64,000 bases of DNA from Gloeomargarita sp. SKYB120 (lineage in GTDB: Bacteria > Cyanobacteriota > Cyanobacteriia > Gloeomargaritales > Gloeomargaritaceae): NCBI GenBank assembly GCA_025062155.1, contig JANXAM010000001.1:62001-126000 (forward strand), written 5' to 3'. The notes below the pieces were generated by a model, which was given only the letters and a program-made list of their open reading frames with translations, searched no databases and was not told the DNA's origin. Made by a program: the position numbers and the translations under genes. Shown in pieces: positions 19,316-40,561 of this stretch (within the stretch, counting starts at the first letter, position 1; each line of letters begins with the position of its first letter).

Positions 19316-19478
19316 GAGTTAGATACAGAGTAGGTGGGTCATCGCAAAGGCATCGGGTAAACTACGGAATTTACAGGTCCTTAACGATTAAGTGTTGTTA
19401 TGTGAAAACTATGGGCTGTTCTATCCAAAAGTCTCTATACTAACTAAGGAAACATTAAAATTTGCGTGTGAAAATTGT

Positions 19479-22400
19479 ATGGAGCAGATGGAATTTTCAT
19501 TGCTCCTTCAGCAAGCAACGTTACAGGTCCAGGAAAGTGTGCCGGTTTTAGGTATACTGCAATCGTTATTGACAACATGGCAACGGGGATCAGGCGCAAA
19601 AGGGATTGGCTTGTATCGGGAACAACAACCGGTTTTGCGGGTCGGGGAGCTAACGTTATTCCACCCATTGCCCTGCACTTGGCAAGCTCAAAAAGTAACT
19701 AGAGACACAGGTGAAACCTGGTTTTTGCCGGTGCGAGTGCGGCAACAGGGAGCAGCCTGGTTAGTAGTGAATTGGGAGATATGTCCCAGCGAAACCCTGT
19801 ACCAGCAGGGAGAAGTCTTGGCCGCCCACATCGGGTTAATCATTCAAGCCACGAATTGGGAACATCTCCAACCGGAACTCCAGGACCAACCCTACTATTT
19901 CTTGCTCGATTCACTGCCCATTGGCGTAGGGCTAGCCAATGCACAAGGGGAATGTATCTACGTCAACAATGCGATTTTGCGAATGTTTCAAGCGCCAAAG
20001 CAAGATTTGCTGGGCCAAGGTTGGTCTGCTTTCATTCATCCCGACGACCGGCAGCGGGTGCTAGAGACCTGGCGGGAGATATTGCAATCCCCTAGCGACT
20101 TTGAACTTGAATACCGTGTTCGACGCCCCAGTGGTGACGTTATCTGGGTGCATTCGTATTTGGCTGTCTTGCGGAATGATAGCGGTCAAGTGGTGGGTTT
20201 TCTTGGTGCGGTCACCGACATCACCCAGGCCAAGGTTCTAGAACAAATGCTCACCCAGAGCGAGAAAAGGTATCGCAACCTGGTGGAATATCAAACGGAT
20301 TTTCTGCTCTATTCGCTAGCAGATACCACGATTACATTTGCCAATCCAGCCCTGTGTGACGCTCTGGGCTATACGTTCGATGAAATGGTTGGCATGAAGT
20401 GGGATGACCTGGTGCTACAAAAACAGGATTTGCAAGTCCTCAAAGGCAACGTGCAGCGTCTGTCTCAGGAAGAATCCATCTTTCACTATGCGAACTATAT
20501 TCGCGGCAAGCAAGGGCAAACCCTGCTGGTCGAGTTCTTAAACTTAGGAATTTTTGATGAGCATGGGCAATTGCTGGCGATTCAATCCTTGGGGCGAGAT
20601 ATCACCGAACTGCGGCGAGCTGAACAGGAGCTACGGGATAGCCGGGACTTTTTAGCGACCCTGATTCAGAATATTCCGGGAATCGTCTATCGTTTTCATC
20701 CAGCCACTCCTGAACGTCCTGCTTACTTAAGTTATATAAACGGCTACGCCGAAGAAATCTTTGAGTTACCGGCTAGTCAAATCATGGCCGACCCCTGTGC
20801 AGTTTGGGAGCAATATACTCACCCCGATGATTTAGAAAGATTGACAACTTCTGTGCAGTCTGCGGTTGAGCAGAAAGCCCCCTGGCATTGCGAGTGGCGT
20901 ATGATCACACCTTCGGGCAAGTTGAAATGGCTGCAAGGACGCTCCCAAGTGCGACAGCAGGGTGATGAATGGTTTTGGGATGGCCTGATTTTGGATGTCA
21001 CCCAATCAAAACTAGCAGAACTAGAACTTGAACGAAATAGAGCTTTTTTAGAGCGAGTTATTGACGCGACAAAAGCCATCATCTATGTCTATGACTTGGA
21101 AAACCAGCGCAATATATTTGTTAATCCCGAAATCGAGCAGGTGTTGGGATATTCACCCGCCGAAATCCAAGCGATGGGGAGTGAATTATTCAACCGCCTG
21201 GTGCATCCAGAAGATATGCCTGTCATTGAGGCCAATATATCACGCCTGCTCCATCCCCAGACAACTGGCGAAGTCATGGGGGAATACCGGATGCGAACCA
21301 AAAGTGGTGAATACCGCTGGCTTTTGAGTCACGACAGGATCTTCAAGTGCAATGAACAGGGACAACCGCAACATATCTTGGGTGTAGCCGTGGACATCAC
21401 CGAACTCAAAAACGTCCAGCAAGCGCTTGCAGAAAACCAGCGGCTTTTGCAACAGATTCTGGATAATTTGCCAGTAACTGTGTGGCGGTATCAACGGTGG
21501 CCGGATGGTCGGGAGACCTTTCTCTATGTTAGCCCAGGTTGCCAGGAACTTTTTGGAATTACTGCTGAACAAATGCTCCAAAATCCCCAAACTCTCTGGC
21601 AACTCATCGTTCCCCAGGATATACCCGTTGCTCACGCATCATTGGAGCACTCCCTTGAACATTTGATGACATGCCGGTGCGAATTTCGGATCATAACCCC
21701 GTACGGCGAATGCAAGTGGATACGGGGATGCGGGCAACCGGAACGCCAACCTGACGGCAGCACCATTTGGGACGCTGTTTTTGTTGACATCACTGCGCAA
21801 AAAGAAGCGGAATTTCAGCTACGAGACTTCAATCAGCAGTTAGAACAGCGGGTCAGAGAACGCACAATACAACTGCAACAACAGGCCCAAACGGAAGGAC
21901 TCCTGCGCATCATTATCGAGACCATCCATCAGTCTTTAGACATTGAAAAAACCCTAAATGTTGTCCTGGAGGAAACCCGACGCACCCTGGCCTGCGACCG
22001 GATTTTAGTGTACAAGTTCAATGACGACTGGAGCGGTTATTTCCTGGCGGAATCGGTGGCCGCCGGTTGGGATCCAGTTATAACTGGACCGCAAACGCCC
22101 CTAGCGGATCACTGTCTCCAGGAGACCGAAGGTGGTCGTTTTCGACATCACTACATCCTGGTGAGTAACGACATCTACAATTCCGGTTTTAGCGAGTGCC
22201 ATATTCGATTGCTGGAGCAATTTCAAGCTCGCGCCCAGGTGGTGGTGCCCATCTTTCTCAACCAAAAACTGTGGGGACTGCTCGCTGCTTATCAAAACAG
22301 TGGCCCGCGTGCCTGGCAAACACATGAAATTGAAATGCTCCAGCACGTGGGGTTGCATTTGGCGATTGCGCTCCGCCAGTCAGAACTCTACAAAGCGGCA

Positions 22401-23159
22401 CAAGCGCAAGTGGTGGAATTGCAAAAGCTCAACCAACTCAAGGACGAATTTCTTAGCACCGTTTCCCACGAATTGCGCTCCCCGATGCACAATATCGGTT
22501 TGGCCCTGAAAATGTTGGAGTTGCGGCTCGCGCGAGCCGGGATACTCCATGATGAAAATCTAGGGATAGGCCGCTATCTAGACGTGCTCAAAACGTCCAC
22601 GCAACGGGAAACGGATTTAATTAACGACCTGCTGGATCTCGCCCGACTCAACGCCGACCCTTCGGATTTACCCACTGAACTGGTGGATGTACCCAAACTG
22701 CTGGATGAACTGTTGCCGCCGTTACGGGAGCGCATGGCCGCCCAGCAGCAGACCTTTATCCTGGAAATACCGGAAACATTTCGCTATTTGGAGACCCACG
22801 CCGCTTCGCTCGCTCGCATCCTGCAGGAGTTGCTCCACAACGCTTGCAAGTACACCCCACCGCAGGAGACCATCACGCTAGCCATTCAGCGCTTGGGGGA
22901 CCAATGCGACTTTCGGGTGATCAATACCGGCGTGGAAATTCCGCCGGAGGAACAGCAACGGGTGTTTGATACCTTCTACCGCATTCCCAGCCACGACCCT
23001 TGGCAGTACGGGGGCACTGGGTTGGGTTTAGCGCTGGTGAAAAAACTGGTTGAGCGCCTGCATGGGGAAATTCACCTGTTTAGCGCTCATAAAAAGACGG
23101 AATTTCGGGTGCGACTGCCTGTGGGTGAGACAGGAAATGGTGGCGGCGCAACCGGGTGA
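19479..23159 (+). CDS. Hybrid-type sensor: five PAS domains, cyanobacteriochrome-like GAF, histidine kinase
   Basis: A 1226-residue soluble sensor kinase. Residues 1-140 form a GAF-like region, followed by five PAS domains at about 141-257, 257-385, 385-517, 517-650 and 650-795, each ending in the typical DIT motif. A GAF domain spans about 807-970. A HisKA domain has its phosphoacceptor at H997 (STVSHELRSP), and the ATPase domain shows HNACKYTPP and GGTGLGLALV. The GAF is close to bilin-binding cyanobacteriochromes: it has GGRFRHHYILVSNDIYNSGF, then C907-H908 where the bilin attaches in that family. A second Cys, C879, lies in D-H-C-L, at the spacing of the DXCF motif. No response regulator follows. 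The frame is open from 19392; the ATG at 19479 or 19488 is the likely start. Confidence 0.9.
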   Translation: MEQMEFSLLLQQATLQVQESVPVLGILQSLLTTWQRGSGAKGIGLYREQQPVLRVGELTLFHPLPCTWQAQKVTRDTGETWFLPVRVRQQGAAWLVVNWEICPSETLYQQGEVLAAHIGLIIQATNWEHLQPELQDQPYYFLLDSLPIGVGLANAQGECIYVNNAILRMFQAPKQDLLGQGWSAFIHPDDRQRVLETWREILQSPSDFELEYRVRRPSGDVIWVHSYLAVLRNDSGQVVGFLGAVTDITQAKVLEQMLTQSEKRYRNLVEYQTDFLLYSLADTTITFANPALCDALGYTFDEMVGMKWDDLVLQKQDLQVLKGNVQRLSQEESIFHYANYIRGKQGQTLLVEFLNLGIFDEHGQLLAIQSLGRDITELRRAEQELRDSRDFLATLIQNIPGIVYRFHPATPERPAYLSYINGYAEEIFELPASQIMADPCAVWEQYTHPDDLERLTTSVQSAVEQKAPWHCEWRMITPSGKLKWLQGRSQVRQQGDEWFWDGLILDVTQSKLAELELERNRAFLERVIDATKAIIYVYDLENQRNIFVNPEIEQVLGYSPAEIQAMGSELFNRLVHPEDMPVIEANISRLLHPQTTGEVMGEYRMRTKSGEYRWLLSHDRIFKCNEQGQPQHILGVAVDITELKNVQQALAENQRLLQQILDNLPVTVWRYQRWPDGRETFLYVSPGCQELFGITAEQMLQNPQTLWQLIVPQDIPVAHASLEHSLEHLMTCRCEFRIITPYGECKWIRGCGQPERQPDGSTIWDAVFVDITAQKEAEFQLRDFNQQLEQRVRERTIQLQQQAQTEGLLRIIIETIHQSLDIEKTLNVVLEETRRTLACDRILVYKFNDDWSGYFLAESVAAGWDPVITGPQTPLADHCLQETEGGRFRHHYILVSNDIYNSGFSECHIRLLEQFQARAQVVVPIFLNQKLWGLLAAYQNSGPRAWQTHEIEMLQHVGLHLAIALRQSELYKAAQAQVVELQKLNQLKDEFLSTVSHELRSPMHNIGLALKMLELRLARAGILHDENLGIGRYLDVLKTSTQRETDLINDLLDLARLNADPSDLPTELVDVPKLLDELLPPLRERMAAQQQTFILEIPETFRYLETHAASLARILQELLHNACKYTPPQETITLAIQRLGDQCDFRVINTGVEIPPEEQQRVFDTFYRIPSHDPWQYGGTGLGLALVKKLVERLHGEIHLFSAHKKTEFRVRLPVGETGNGGGATG

Positions 23160-36558: not shown

Positions 36559-39285
36559 TTAGTCCTGGGCTGACCAGAGCCGCACTTGGTTGTCATCCCC
36601 AGCGGAGATGAGCAACCGACCATCGGGTGTGATGGCTAGGAGTTTGACCGCCTCTAGATGGCCCGTCAGGGTCTGCACTTCCCTGCCGGTGGCGGGGTTC
36701 CACACCGTGATCGCCGGGGCACCCACCGTTCCGGTCGCCGTGAACAGCAGCGCTTTATCGGGGCTAAATAGCAGGTCGTACACGATGCCGGAGGCCCTCA
36801 GGGTGCGCAACCGGTTGCCCTGGGCCATATCCCACAGCAATACCCGCCCGTCTACGCCACTGCCGGCGGCGAGCACACGCCCATCCCCACGAAACGCCAG
36901 CGACCAGATGCCCTGGCGCAGTTCGGGGTGGGTCAACCTGTAACGGCGTTGGCGCGGGAGCACCTCCCACACCTCTACCACAGACTGGCTCTGACTACCC
37001 GCTGCCACGAGCCGGCCCGCCGGGCTCACCGCTAGCGCATCAATCTTCCCCAGTTCCGGTAGGTCTTGGCGGAAGGTGGGACCGGTGGTGGGAAGCTGCA
37101 AATCCCACAGGTAAATCGTGCCGTTGGCATCCCCCACCGCTAGAAACCGCCCAGTGCCATCACTGGCCATAGCGGTAATCACGCCCTTGGGAGCTGCCAG
37201 GGGTTCTAAAGGGCGGCCACTGGGGACCCTCCACAGCTCTAGCCCCGCGCGGTCAGAGCTGACCAACTGTTCCCCTTGGCGCACAAAGGCCAGCCCCATC
37301 ACCGGCAGTCCCGCAGAGCGGAGCAGACGTTGCCGTTGGCCCGCCGGCAGTTGCCAGAGATAAATGCCGCCATCATCACTCCCAACCGCAATTTGTTTGC
37401 CTTGAGGGTCAATTGCTAGGGCGCTGACCCGCCCCGGTGCGGTGATAACCGTTGGTTCGCTGGAGAAACGGGCCAGGGTGGACGCGGTTACCTGGAGCGG
37501 GTCGTCGCGGGTCGCCCGCTGCTCATGCCACCACAACCCCACACCAGCCGACAATGTCAACAGGCCCGCCAGCAGTCCCATCAACCAAAGGGGCGAAGGC
37601 CGACGAGGCGCCGGTGGCAGGGAGCGGGGAAGCGGTCGCACGGGACGTCCACGGGTCACGGGTTCCGCCGGTGGGGGCGGCGGCGGTAGAGGCGGTCGGC
37701 GTTGCCCTTGAGTCGCTGGTTCTGCAGCCGGGCCACTGGCTGCTGTCTTCGCGGGCAAGACCTGGTAATGCAGCAACACCACTGTCACGTTGTCATGGCC
37801 GTTGCGCCGGTTGGCCAGTTGGATCAGCCGCTGGGCGGCGGTGACCAAATCCCGTTCACCGGTTAGAATTGGCAGAATTTCCCATTGCCAGTGCTGGTCC
37901 ACCAAGTTGTTGTCGCTCAGGCCGTCGGAGCACAGGAGAAAAACGCTGTCTTCGTCCAGCAGAAACCGCTGAACCGCCGGGTGGAGGACGCTGGAGGCGC
38001 TGATACCCAGGGCCTGCACCAAGGCGCCCGCCGCCGGTTGCCGTAACGCTTGCGGGTAAAGACTGTACCCCAGCCGCACCTCCCGCGACGCCACATCGTC
38101 GTCGGTGGTCATTTGGTAGCAACCCGAGCGAGTGATCCAGTAGGCGCGGCTATCACCCACGTTGGCAACAAACACGTCGTAATCCCGGATGAACGCCAGA
38201 GTCAGGGTGGTGCCCATGCGTTGCCGTTCTTGGCGTTGTTGCTGGTTGTTGACCTGGGCAATGCGCTCGTTGGCCTGGCAGACCACGGTGGCCAGTTCTT
38301 CAGCGATAAGCTTGGTGTCCAGTTTGGCCAGCAGGTGGGGATTGAGATGCTGACTGACGGACTCAACGGCCAGATTGGCCGCCTGGTCTCCCCCTTCGTG
38401 GCCGCCAATGCCGTCGCAGACAATCGCCAGGGGTAACGCCTGAGGGCTATGGGCTTTGGGGTAACAGGCATCCTCGTTACGGCGGCGCGTGGGTCCGGGG
38501 TCTGTCTGGGCTATGACCGTCACTTGGCTGTTCCAGGTCTCCCGCCACAGGGCAAGCCGCTGTTCAATCTGCTGGAGCCACTCTTCGGCGCTGGTGATCT
38601 GCTGCTGGATCATGGCTTCGCACCACTGGGCCAAGGGTTCGCGCACCTCCGAGCGGGCGGTCGGCACCAGGCGCTGCAGCAGCTCTCCCAACTGAGCCAA
38701 GGAGACCGGCTCCGGGTCGGGCGCCAACTCCCGCAAGCGCAGCACCGGCCCTTCGACCCGCAGCAGTTGCGGTTTCAACAGGCTGCTGGCCACTTGCTGA
38801 TAGTTCAATACCGGCCAGAGACGGGCTATTTGCCACAGCCAGTTCAGTTGCCGAAACGCCGTTGCGTTGGTCCAGGCCACGCCGAACGGTTGCACGGGCT
38901 TGGGATGAGGGGGTGGTTCGCTGTACTCCTTAGTCAACAGCGGCACCTGGGACAGCAACAGTCGCAACTGGCCCCCCACCGGCATCACTGCGTAAATCTG
39001 GGGTAAGTGCAGCCGCCAGGGAAATAACCGCAGGTAGGGCTGGGCCTCGATGGGAACGGTATCGACACTCAGCGGCGGTCGCCCCGGTTGCACATCCAAT
39101 AGGATATGTTCTCCCCGCAGGCGGTAGCGCTCTCGGTAGGGACGCTCTAGGTCTGTCTCCTGCAACGGCTCACCCGGAACCCACAGAAAAACCGTCTCCA
39201 GAGGTGCCCCACAGACCTGACAAAAGAGTTGGGTCTCAGGATTCAGGCTGTAGCAACTAGGGTTGGAACATTCTAGGTTGTCCAT
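36559..39285 (-). CDS. Zinc-ribbon / PP2C phosphatase / WD40 fusion protein
   Basis: The 908-residue protein has four parts. Residues 6-25 form a zinc ribbon (C6, C11, C22, C25). Residues 254-508 are a PPM/PP2C phosphatase with intact metal motifs: NEDA near 270, DGIGGHEGG (291-299), GDSR (377-380), SDGLSDN (453-459) and GHDN (496-499). A Pro-rich linker and a hydrophobic helix (566-586) follow. Residues 615-908 are WD40 repeats (several VRLW/VYLW-type strand ends). With one helix, the phosphatase should face the cytoplasm and the propeller the periplasm or lumen, unless the helix is buried. The start at 39285 is fixed by the zinc ribbon; the upstream frame is not coding. The substrate is unknown. 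Confidence 0.88.
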   Translation of the reverse strand: MDNLECSNPSCYSLNPETQLFCQVCGAPLETVFLWVPGEPLQETDLERPYRERYRLRGEHILLDVQPGRPPLSVDTVPIEAQPYLRLFPWRLHLPQIYAVMPVGGQLRLLLSQVPLLTKEYSEPPPHPKPVQPFGVAWTNATAFRQLNWLWQIARLWPVLNYQQVASSLLKPQLLRVEGPVLRLRELAPDPEPVSLAQLGELLQRLVPTARSEVREPLAQWCEAMIQQQITSAEEWLQQIEQRLALWRETWNSQVTVIAQTDPGPTRRRNEDACYPKAHSPQALPLAIVCDGIGGHEGGDQAANLAVESVSQHLNPHLLAKLDTKLIAEELATVVCQANERIAQVNNQQQRQERQRMGTTLTLAFIRDYDVFVANVGDSRAYWITRSGCYQMTTDDDVASREVRLGYSLYPQALRQPAAGALVQALGISASSVLHPAVQRFLLDEDSVFLLCSDGLSDNNLVDQHWQWEILPILTGERDLVTAAQRLIQLANRRNGHDNVTVVLLHYQVLPAKTAASGPAAEPATQGQRRPPLPPPPPPAEPVTRGRPVRPLPRSLPPAPRRPSPLWLMGLLAGLLTLSAGVGLWWHEQRATRDDPLQVTASTLARFSSEPTVITAPGRVSALAIDPQGKQIAVGSDDGGIYLWQLPAGQRQRLLRSAGLPVMGLAFVRQGEQLVSSDRAGLELWRVPSGRPLEPLAAPKGVITAMASDGTGRFLAVGDANGTIYLWDLQLPTTGPTFRQDLPELGKIDALAVSPAGRLVAAGSQSQSVVEVWEVLPRQRRYRLTHPELRQGIWSLAFRGDGRVLAAGSGVDGRVLLWDMAQGNRLRTLRASGIVYDLLFSPDKALLFTATGTVGAPAITVWNPATGREVQTLTGHLEAVKLLAITPDGRLLISAGDDNQVRLWSAQD

Positions 39286-39328
39286 CCATCCGGTGGGGGG
39301 TGATGGCAGCTTGCCTACCCATCTTAGC

Positions 39329-40561
39329 CTACGCCTCCTCCAGGGCCGCAATCCCCGGTAAAACCTTGCCCTCGAGCAATTCCAGGCTAGCACCCCCGCC
39401 GGTAGAAATATGGCTCATGCGGTCAGCCAGTCCCGCCTGTTCCACAGCGGCCACCGAATCCCCCCCACCAATAATCGTCGTGCAGCCCTGGGCGGTCAAA
39501 TCCGCGAGAATTTGGGCCACCGCTCGCGTGCCAGCGGCAAACCGCTCAAACTCAAACACGCCCATCGGCCCATTCCACACCACCGTCTGACACCCCTGCA
39601 ACGCCTGACGGATTTGTTCCACTGACGCTGGCCCAATGTCTAACCCCATCCACTCGTCGGGGATCGCCGTCACCGGTACGGTTTGGGCCTGGGCATCCGG
39701 GGCAAACTTGTCGGCGACCACCACATCTGTCGGCAACAGCAATTGGATCCCCCGCGCCTGGGCCTTGGCCATCAGGTTTTTTGCCAGCTCCACCTTGTCT
39801 GTTTCCACCAGGGATTTGCCGACGCGCAACCCCTGGGCCAGGTAGAAGGTAAAAATCATGCCGCCGCCGAGAATCAGGCGGTCCACCTTTTCCAGTAGCG
39901 CCTCGATCACCCCAATCTTGCTCGACACCTTCGACCCACCGATGATGGCCGCTAAGGGCCGCCGGGGATTTTCAATCGCCCCCTGTAGGTACTGCAACTC
40001 CTTCTCAATCAGAAATCCTGCTACGGCGGGCTTCAAATAGTGGGCAACCCTTTCGGTGGAGGCGTGGGCGCGGTGGGCCGTCCCAAAGGCGTCATTCACG
40101 TACAGGTCGGCCAAGGCGGCTAATTTCTGGGCAAAAGCAGGGTCGTTGGCCTCCTCTTCGGCGTAGAAACGCACATTTTCCAGGAGCGCCACTTGCCCAT
40201 TTTGTAGGTTTTGCACCACCCGCTGGGCCGCTTCACCGATACAATCGGGGGCAAATTGGACGTCTGTACCCAGCAACTCAGCTAAACGGGCGGCGACAGG
40301 GGCTAGACTGTTGCCCTCCTTGACCAGTTTCACCTCGCCCGTGTTTTTGTCCTTTTGAAACGGCCGTCCCAGGTGACTGCACAGGATGACCTTAGCCCCC
40401 CGTTCCCGTAGGTATTGGATGGTAGGCAGCGCTGCCCGAATCCGTGTATCGTCGGTAATCCGCTGTTCTTTATCCAGGGGCACGTTAAAGTCCACCCGCA
40501 CCAAAACCCGCTTGCCCGCCAGGTCAGCCTCGGTCAAACTAGCCACTGTTTTTTTCGCCAC
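39329..40561 (-). CDS. pgk: Phosphoglycerate kinase
   Basis: Phosphoglycerate kinase makes 1,3-bisphosphoglycerate in the Calvin cycle and runs in reverse in glycolysis. The 410-residue protein has the signature [19 protein letters not shown], and [11 protein letters not shown] near the C terminus. The GTG at 40561 (MAKKTVASL) is chosen because GGAGGG lies seven bases upstream; the open frame reaches 40621, over the divergent stress-protein start. It ends 43 bases upstream of the PP2C fusion. Confidence 0.97.

Follow-up and report, generated by a model that had tools for sequence, protein, structure and literature searches.

In the 64,000-nucleotide stretch of DNA analysed here (the window), a sensor histidine kinase carries a cyanobacteriochrome GAF domain that belongs by lineage to the red/green-type (XRG) group and holds, besides the canonical bilin-binding cysteine C907, a second cysteine, C879, at the position of the second Cys of DXCF receptors. 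We consider it probable that this domain is an XRG receptor in which the regained Cys ligates the bilin reversibly at C10, giving one photostate that absorbs blue or violet light. Two-Cys switching on an XRG backbone is already known in kind, and the kinase is a further example of it rather than a unique one.

Domain architecture and conservation of the kinase

The longest reading frame of the kinase gene extends from 19392 to 23159, begins with GTG and encodes 1255 amino acids. We numbered residues from the in-frame ATG at 19479, which gives a protein of 1226 amino acids. Pfam identified five PAS_3 stretches, one GAF, a HisKA and a HATPase_c domain (Table 1). No significant Pfam family was found in the 137 N-terminal residues (window 19479-19890), which are possibly a degenerate GAF. 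The neighbours of the gene encode a histidine phosphatase-family protein and a methyltransferase; no response regulator was recognised among these flanking genes. Elsewhere in the window, positions 36562-39393 of the minus strand encode a 944-aa protein with a PP2C-type phosphatase domain and WD40 repeats.

Table 1 Features of the sensor kinase and of the bilin site of its GAF domain. Positions are those of the window.
Feature	Position	Strand	Basis and remarks
Sensor histidine kinase, 1226 aa	19479..23159	+	ATG start, stop at 23159; orthologue alignment starts near this ATG
Five PAS domains	19899..21809 (approximate limits)	+	Five PAS_3 stretches (Pfam); limits drawn by eye from the orthologue alignment
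Cyanobacteriochrome GAF, XRG lineage	21939..22373	+	Pfam GAF, residues 850-994 of the 1255-aa ORF
L875, replaces Trp of WXDXXL (AnPixJg2 W289)	22101..22103	+	Alignment; same in 5/5 orthologues
D877, conserved bilin-contact Asp (AnPixJg2 D291)	22107..22109	+	Alignment; 5/5 orthologues
C879, candidate second (C10-ligating) Cys, DXCF position (AnPixJg2 H293)	22113..22115	+	Alignment; 5/5 orthologues
C907-H908, canonical bilin attachment site (AnPixJg2 C321-H322)	22197..22202	+	Alignment; C907 at 22197-22199, H908 at 22200-22202
HisKA	22440..22655	+	Pfam; phosphoacceptor His at 22467-22469, H-box SHELRSP
HATPase_c	22803..23123	+	Pfam

A search of 59 genomes for orthologues of the kinase yielded four in the same genus, with GAF domains 87% (G002), 72% (G004), 69% (G001) and 66% (G003) identical to that of the window, making a set of five with the window protein. 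Two more genomes of the genus that were searched alongside, one of them only 83% complete, lacked an orthologue, and so did the only further genus of the family that the search covered. L875, D877, C879, C907 and H908 are invariant in all five proteins, which share the motif L-x-D-[HS]-C-L together with CH; G002 has DSCL and the other four have DHCL. The nearest relatives outside the genus (52-56% identity) carry WxDTYL or WxDIYL and lack the second Cys.

Compared domain by domain with the window protein, the orthologues are 69-87% identical in the GAF; the kinase domains reach 76-84% and the N-terminal region (the 137 residues described above) 40-51%. For the PAS domains the range is 43-79%, excluding PAS4 of G004, which has been lost. 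Among the sensory parts of the kinase, the GAF is thus the best conserved. Since many GAF columns are invariant among these orthologues, the conservation of C879 taken alone is modest evidence.

Fold and bilin-site residues of the GAF domain

By sequence and by fold the domain belongs with the cyanobacteriochromes. The red/green receptor AnPixJg2 was the top phmmer match in the PDB (5zoh, 1.5e-43; 3w2z, 7.6e-43), followed by 6bhn (NpR6012g4) and 5dfx (Slr1393 GAF3), with TePixJ at about 1e-25. An AlphaFold2 model of the apo-protein, for which 26 sequences from the window and the loci were used (pLDDT 85.4, pTM 0.83), also found its best fold match in AnPixJg2 (3w2z; TM 0.90, 46% identity), while TM scores against the TePixJ entries were 0.73-0.78. 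The domain also has the XRG signature LQET.GGRF.

The phmmer alignment sets L875-A-D877-H-C879-L of the kinase opposite W289-E-D291-T-H293-L of AnPixJg2, and the corresponding motif of TePixJ is E-D-P-C-F. Both this alignment and the profile alignments put C879 in the column of the DXCF Cys. The GAF contains only three cysteines, at 839, 879 and 907, and with C879 invariant in the five orthologues its place in this column is unlikely to be a chance match. Neither of the two familiar motifs is complete: D-H-C-L stands in place of D-X-C-F, and in LADHCL the Trp of WXDXXL has become Leu, with the Asp and the final Leu retained. Atypical XRG members without the Trp were already known (PMC11284453), and the kinase GAF is a motif-deviant member of the group by lineage, not a typical one. 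Counting further AnPixJg2 residues from C321 along the phmmer alignment suggests the equivalences R887/R301, F888/Y302, L894/F308, F904/H318 and A936/A350.

These results uphold the structural part of the original prediction. It had described a five-PAS kinase, which the Pfam domains bear out, and had placed the feature at 22107-22202, an interval that spans exactly D877 through H908 when the ATG at 19479 is taken as the start. Its reading of a canonical Cys-His attachment site, of a WED motif that had lost its Trp to Leu and kept its Asp, and of a Cys at DXCF spacing agrees with the alignment to AnPixJg2. The comparison with cyanobacteriochrome GAFs that it had proposed as a check places C879 in the expected column, and the red/green-type backbone that it had recognised is supported by the best match to AnPixJg2 and by the trees described below.

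AnPixJg2 and the kinase GAF, at about 46-47% identity, have in common the CH site, the Asp and an XRG-type loop; they differ in that AnPixJg2 has W289 and H293 where the kinase has Leu and Cys, and lacks a second Cys. TePixJ and other DXCF receptors share with the kinase both the Cys at the motif position and the canonical CH, but belong to another lineage in the best trees and have Phe after the Cys, where the kinase has Leu. Between GW and the Asp the kinase GAF has a loop of 12 residues, close to the 13-14 of the typical XRG rows, versus 9 in the DXCF rows that were measured.

Lineage of the GAF and origin of the second cysteine

The motif columns were excluded from the GAF trees. In a tree of 102 rows the five orthologues formed a clade (SH-aLRT 100) inside a clade of 11 rows (98), itself within an XRG group of 63 rows (99). 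With 49 rows the five (100/100) fell among GAFs with WxDTYL (98/94), within XRG (100/99), and with 58 rows they were again nested among WxDTYL GAFs (99/97; the five 100/100, XRG 100/99). All three best trees thus set this GAF, with its Cys at the DXCF position, within the XRG lineage. Trees constrained to unite the five with the DXCF rows were worse by 10.0 and 14.5 log-likelihood units, but this grouping, which amounts to a position at the base of XRG, was not rejected by the AU test (p-AU 0.114 and 0.163). Because the best trees nest the five in XRG while the test leaves the alternative standing, a regain of the DXCF-position Cys within XRG is favoured, not proven. The length of the loop points in the same direction.

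It is also conceivable, whatever the mechanism, that the Cys is ancestral and that the clade diverged basally in XRG, when the second Cys had not yet been lost. The long stem of the clade (0.46-0.63) and the survival of a grouping with the DXCF rows in the AU test are consistent with this origin. We nevertheless regard it as unlikely, given the nesting among WxDTYL GAFs at a log-likelihood 10-14 units better, the near-XRG loop length and the presence of the XRG signature.

Regain of the Cys, the favoured origin, appears not to be confined to this kinase. The DNA pattern D-x-C-[L/F]-x-[D/E]-x-[E/Q]-G-G matched in 13 of the 390 genomes of the class, namely the five with orthologues and eight others, and five of these eight matches encode cyanobacteriochrome-like GAFs (L078, L079, L080, L081 and L088). 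L081 groups with the DXCF rows. The other four fall in XRG: L079 and L080 with INDTCL; L078 together with L131, L137 and L128, with LNDPCL or FDDPCL and CY replacing CH; and L088, which retains the Trp (WNDSCL) and has a long branch. As several XRG groups carry the Cys, and the 58-row tree requires three changes at this position within XRG, it probably arose on this backbone more than once. Together with the five orthologues, these groups therefore make it possible to study directly how blue sensing has evolved repeatedly on a red/green scaffold.

Proposed photocycle and alternatives

In the photocycle that we propose, C907 would hold ring A of phycocyanobilin permanently, as its CH motif suggests, and C879 would form a reversible thioether with C10 of the bilin, so that one photostate would absorb blue or violet light. 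Isomerisation between 15Z and 15E would make or break the C879-C10 bond and thereby may alter the activity of the adjacent kinase. In DXCF receptors the second Cys is attached to C10 in the blue 15Z state, and by analogy the adduct of the kinase is likelier in the 15Z dark state; the reverse may also occur, as in AM1_1186g2, where the bond is present in the 15E state (PMC6628166).

Two known kinds of XRG receptor resemble this scheme. XRG GAFs with a reacquired DXCF Cys were identified earlier (Rockwell, Martin and Lagarias 2017, as cited in PMC11284453); in the account given by PMC11284453 they both convert PCB to PVB by isomerisation and reversibly ligate C10. As described there, they share with the kinase GAF the red/green lineage, the canonical Cys and the Cys at the DXCF position; set beside that description, the kinase motif LxDHCL has Leu both directly after the Cys and at the place of the Trp. 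AM1_1186g2, a red/blue receptor, is likewise a dual-Cys photoreceptor of the XRG lineage, but has its second Cys in helix alpha-3 and not at the DXCF position (PMC6628166). Of the dual-Cys photocycle that had been put forward for the kinase, the mechanism thus stands as the most likely one, as judged from residues and lineage, and its supposed unusualness does not, dual-Cys XRG cases having been reported before. The label of a blue or violet sensor holds for the one photostate expected to absorb there, and fixes just one of the two.

The residue that follows C879 is Leu, and we count the missing Phe of DXCF against two-Cys switching. In a loop-deleted insert-Cys receptor, changing DTYL to DTCL disrupted bilin conjugation, and Cys variants at this motif position photoconverted poorly (PMC5240096); the disruption suggests, by analogy, that the bilin is within reach of a Cys placed as in D-x-C-L. 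Full formation of PVB in single-Cys XRG receptors needs Cys/Val/Ile at three positions (PMC11284453); these are Leu, His and Ala in the kinase, which in a GAF with two Cys is compatible with either PCB or PVB. The Ala stands at the D-ring position, which is Ile in PVB-forming XRG receptors. Tentatively, and with appreciably less confidence than the two-Cys photocycle itself, the five proteins may represent a genus-specific XRG class, with Leu for the Trp lid and DXCL rather than DXCF, that switches efficiently with two Cys and, in line with this Ala, keeps PCB, and for that reason would have an unusual, widely separated pair of colours. With neither the Phe nor the Trp lid, the kinase is a natural case in which to ask whether a Cys in the DXCF column is by itself enough to ligate C10, and the five orthologues, which differ elsewhere in the GAF domain, allow comparison.

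The Leu after C879 would also fit a receptor that binds its bilin through C907 only, with C879 filling space or tuning either the A ring or the isomerisation of PCB to PVB. Such a receptor would be red/green, orange/green or green/teal, with no C10 ligation, and XRG GAFs whose Trp is replaced by Cys do tune isomerisation without ligating C10 (PMC11284453). In the kinase, however, the Cys lies in the exact column of the DXCF Cys and not in that of the Trp, and C10 ligation is reported for XRG GAFs with a regained DXCF Cys in the account of PMC11284453; we judge a single-Cys receptor rather improbable. Loss of bilin binding in the cell, with both Cys left as relics or used in redox sensing, is very improbable: the Trp lid is gone and Y302 of AnPixJg2 is replaced by Phe, but all five orthologues retain CH, the Asp, the Arg and the pocket signature around them, and the genome contains the genes of the bilin pathway.

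Bilin supply and other photoreceptors of the genome

The genome encodes a heme oxygenase and a bilin reductase identified as phycocyanobilin:ferredoxin oxidoreductase (PcyA) by an NCBIfam match above the cut-off, and phycocyanobilin is accordingly available. Two heme oxygenase genes are present in this genome, G000 (contig 60, 1130-1735; contig 8, 6145-6750), versus one in each of the six other related genomes searched, which reflects either a duplication or a mixed assembly.

The window GAF is the sole XRG-type GAF seen in the genome; the other clear cyanobacteriochrome GAFs are of DPCF type, and of these contig 2 has five and contig 9 a single one. Those on contig 2 (136280-138901; L005, L106) lie in tandem in a PixJ-like protein of 1398 amino acids, each with DPCF and CH, and this protein is probably a multi-GAF blue/green receptor. 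The GAF on contig 9 (58501-58926; L098) has IYDPCF and a PCH site, belongs to a protein of 1118 amino acids and forms a long branch in the tree.
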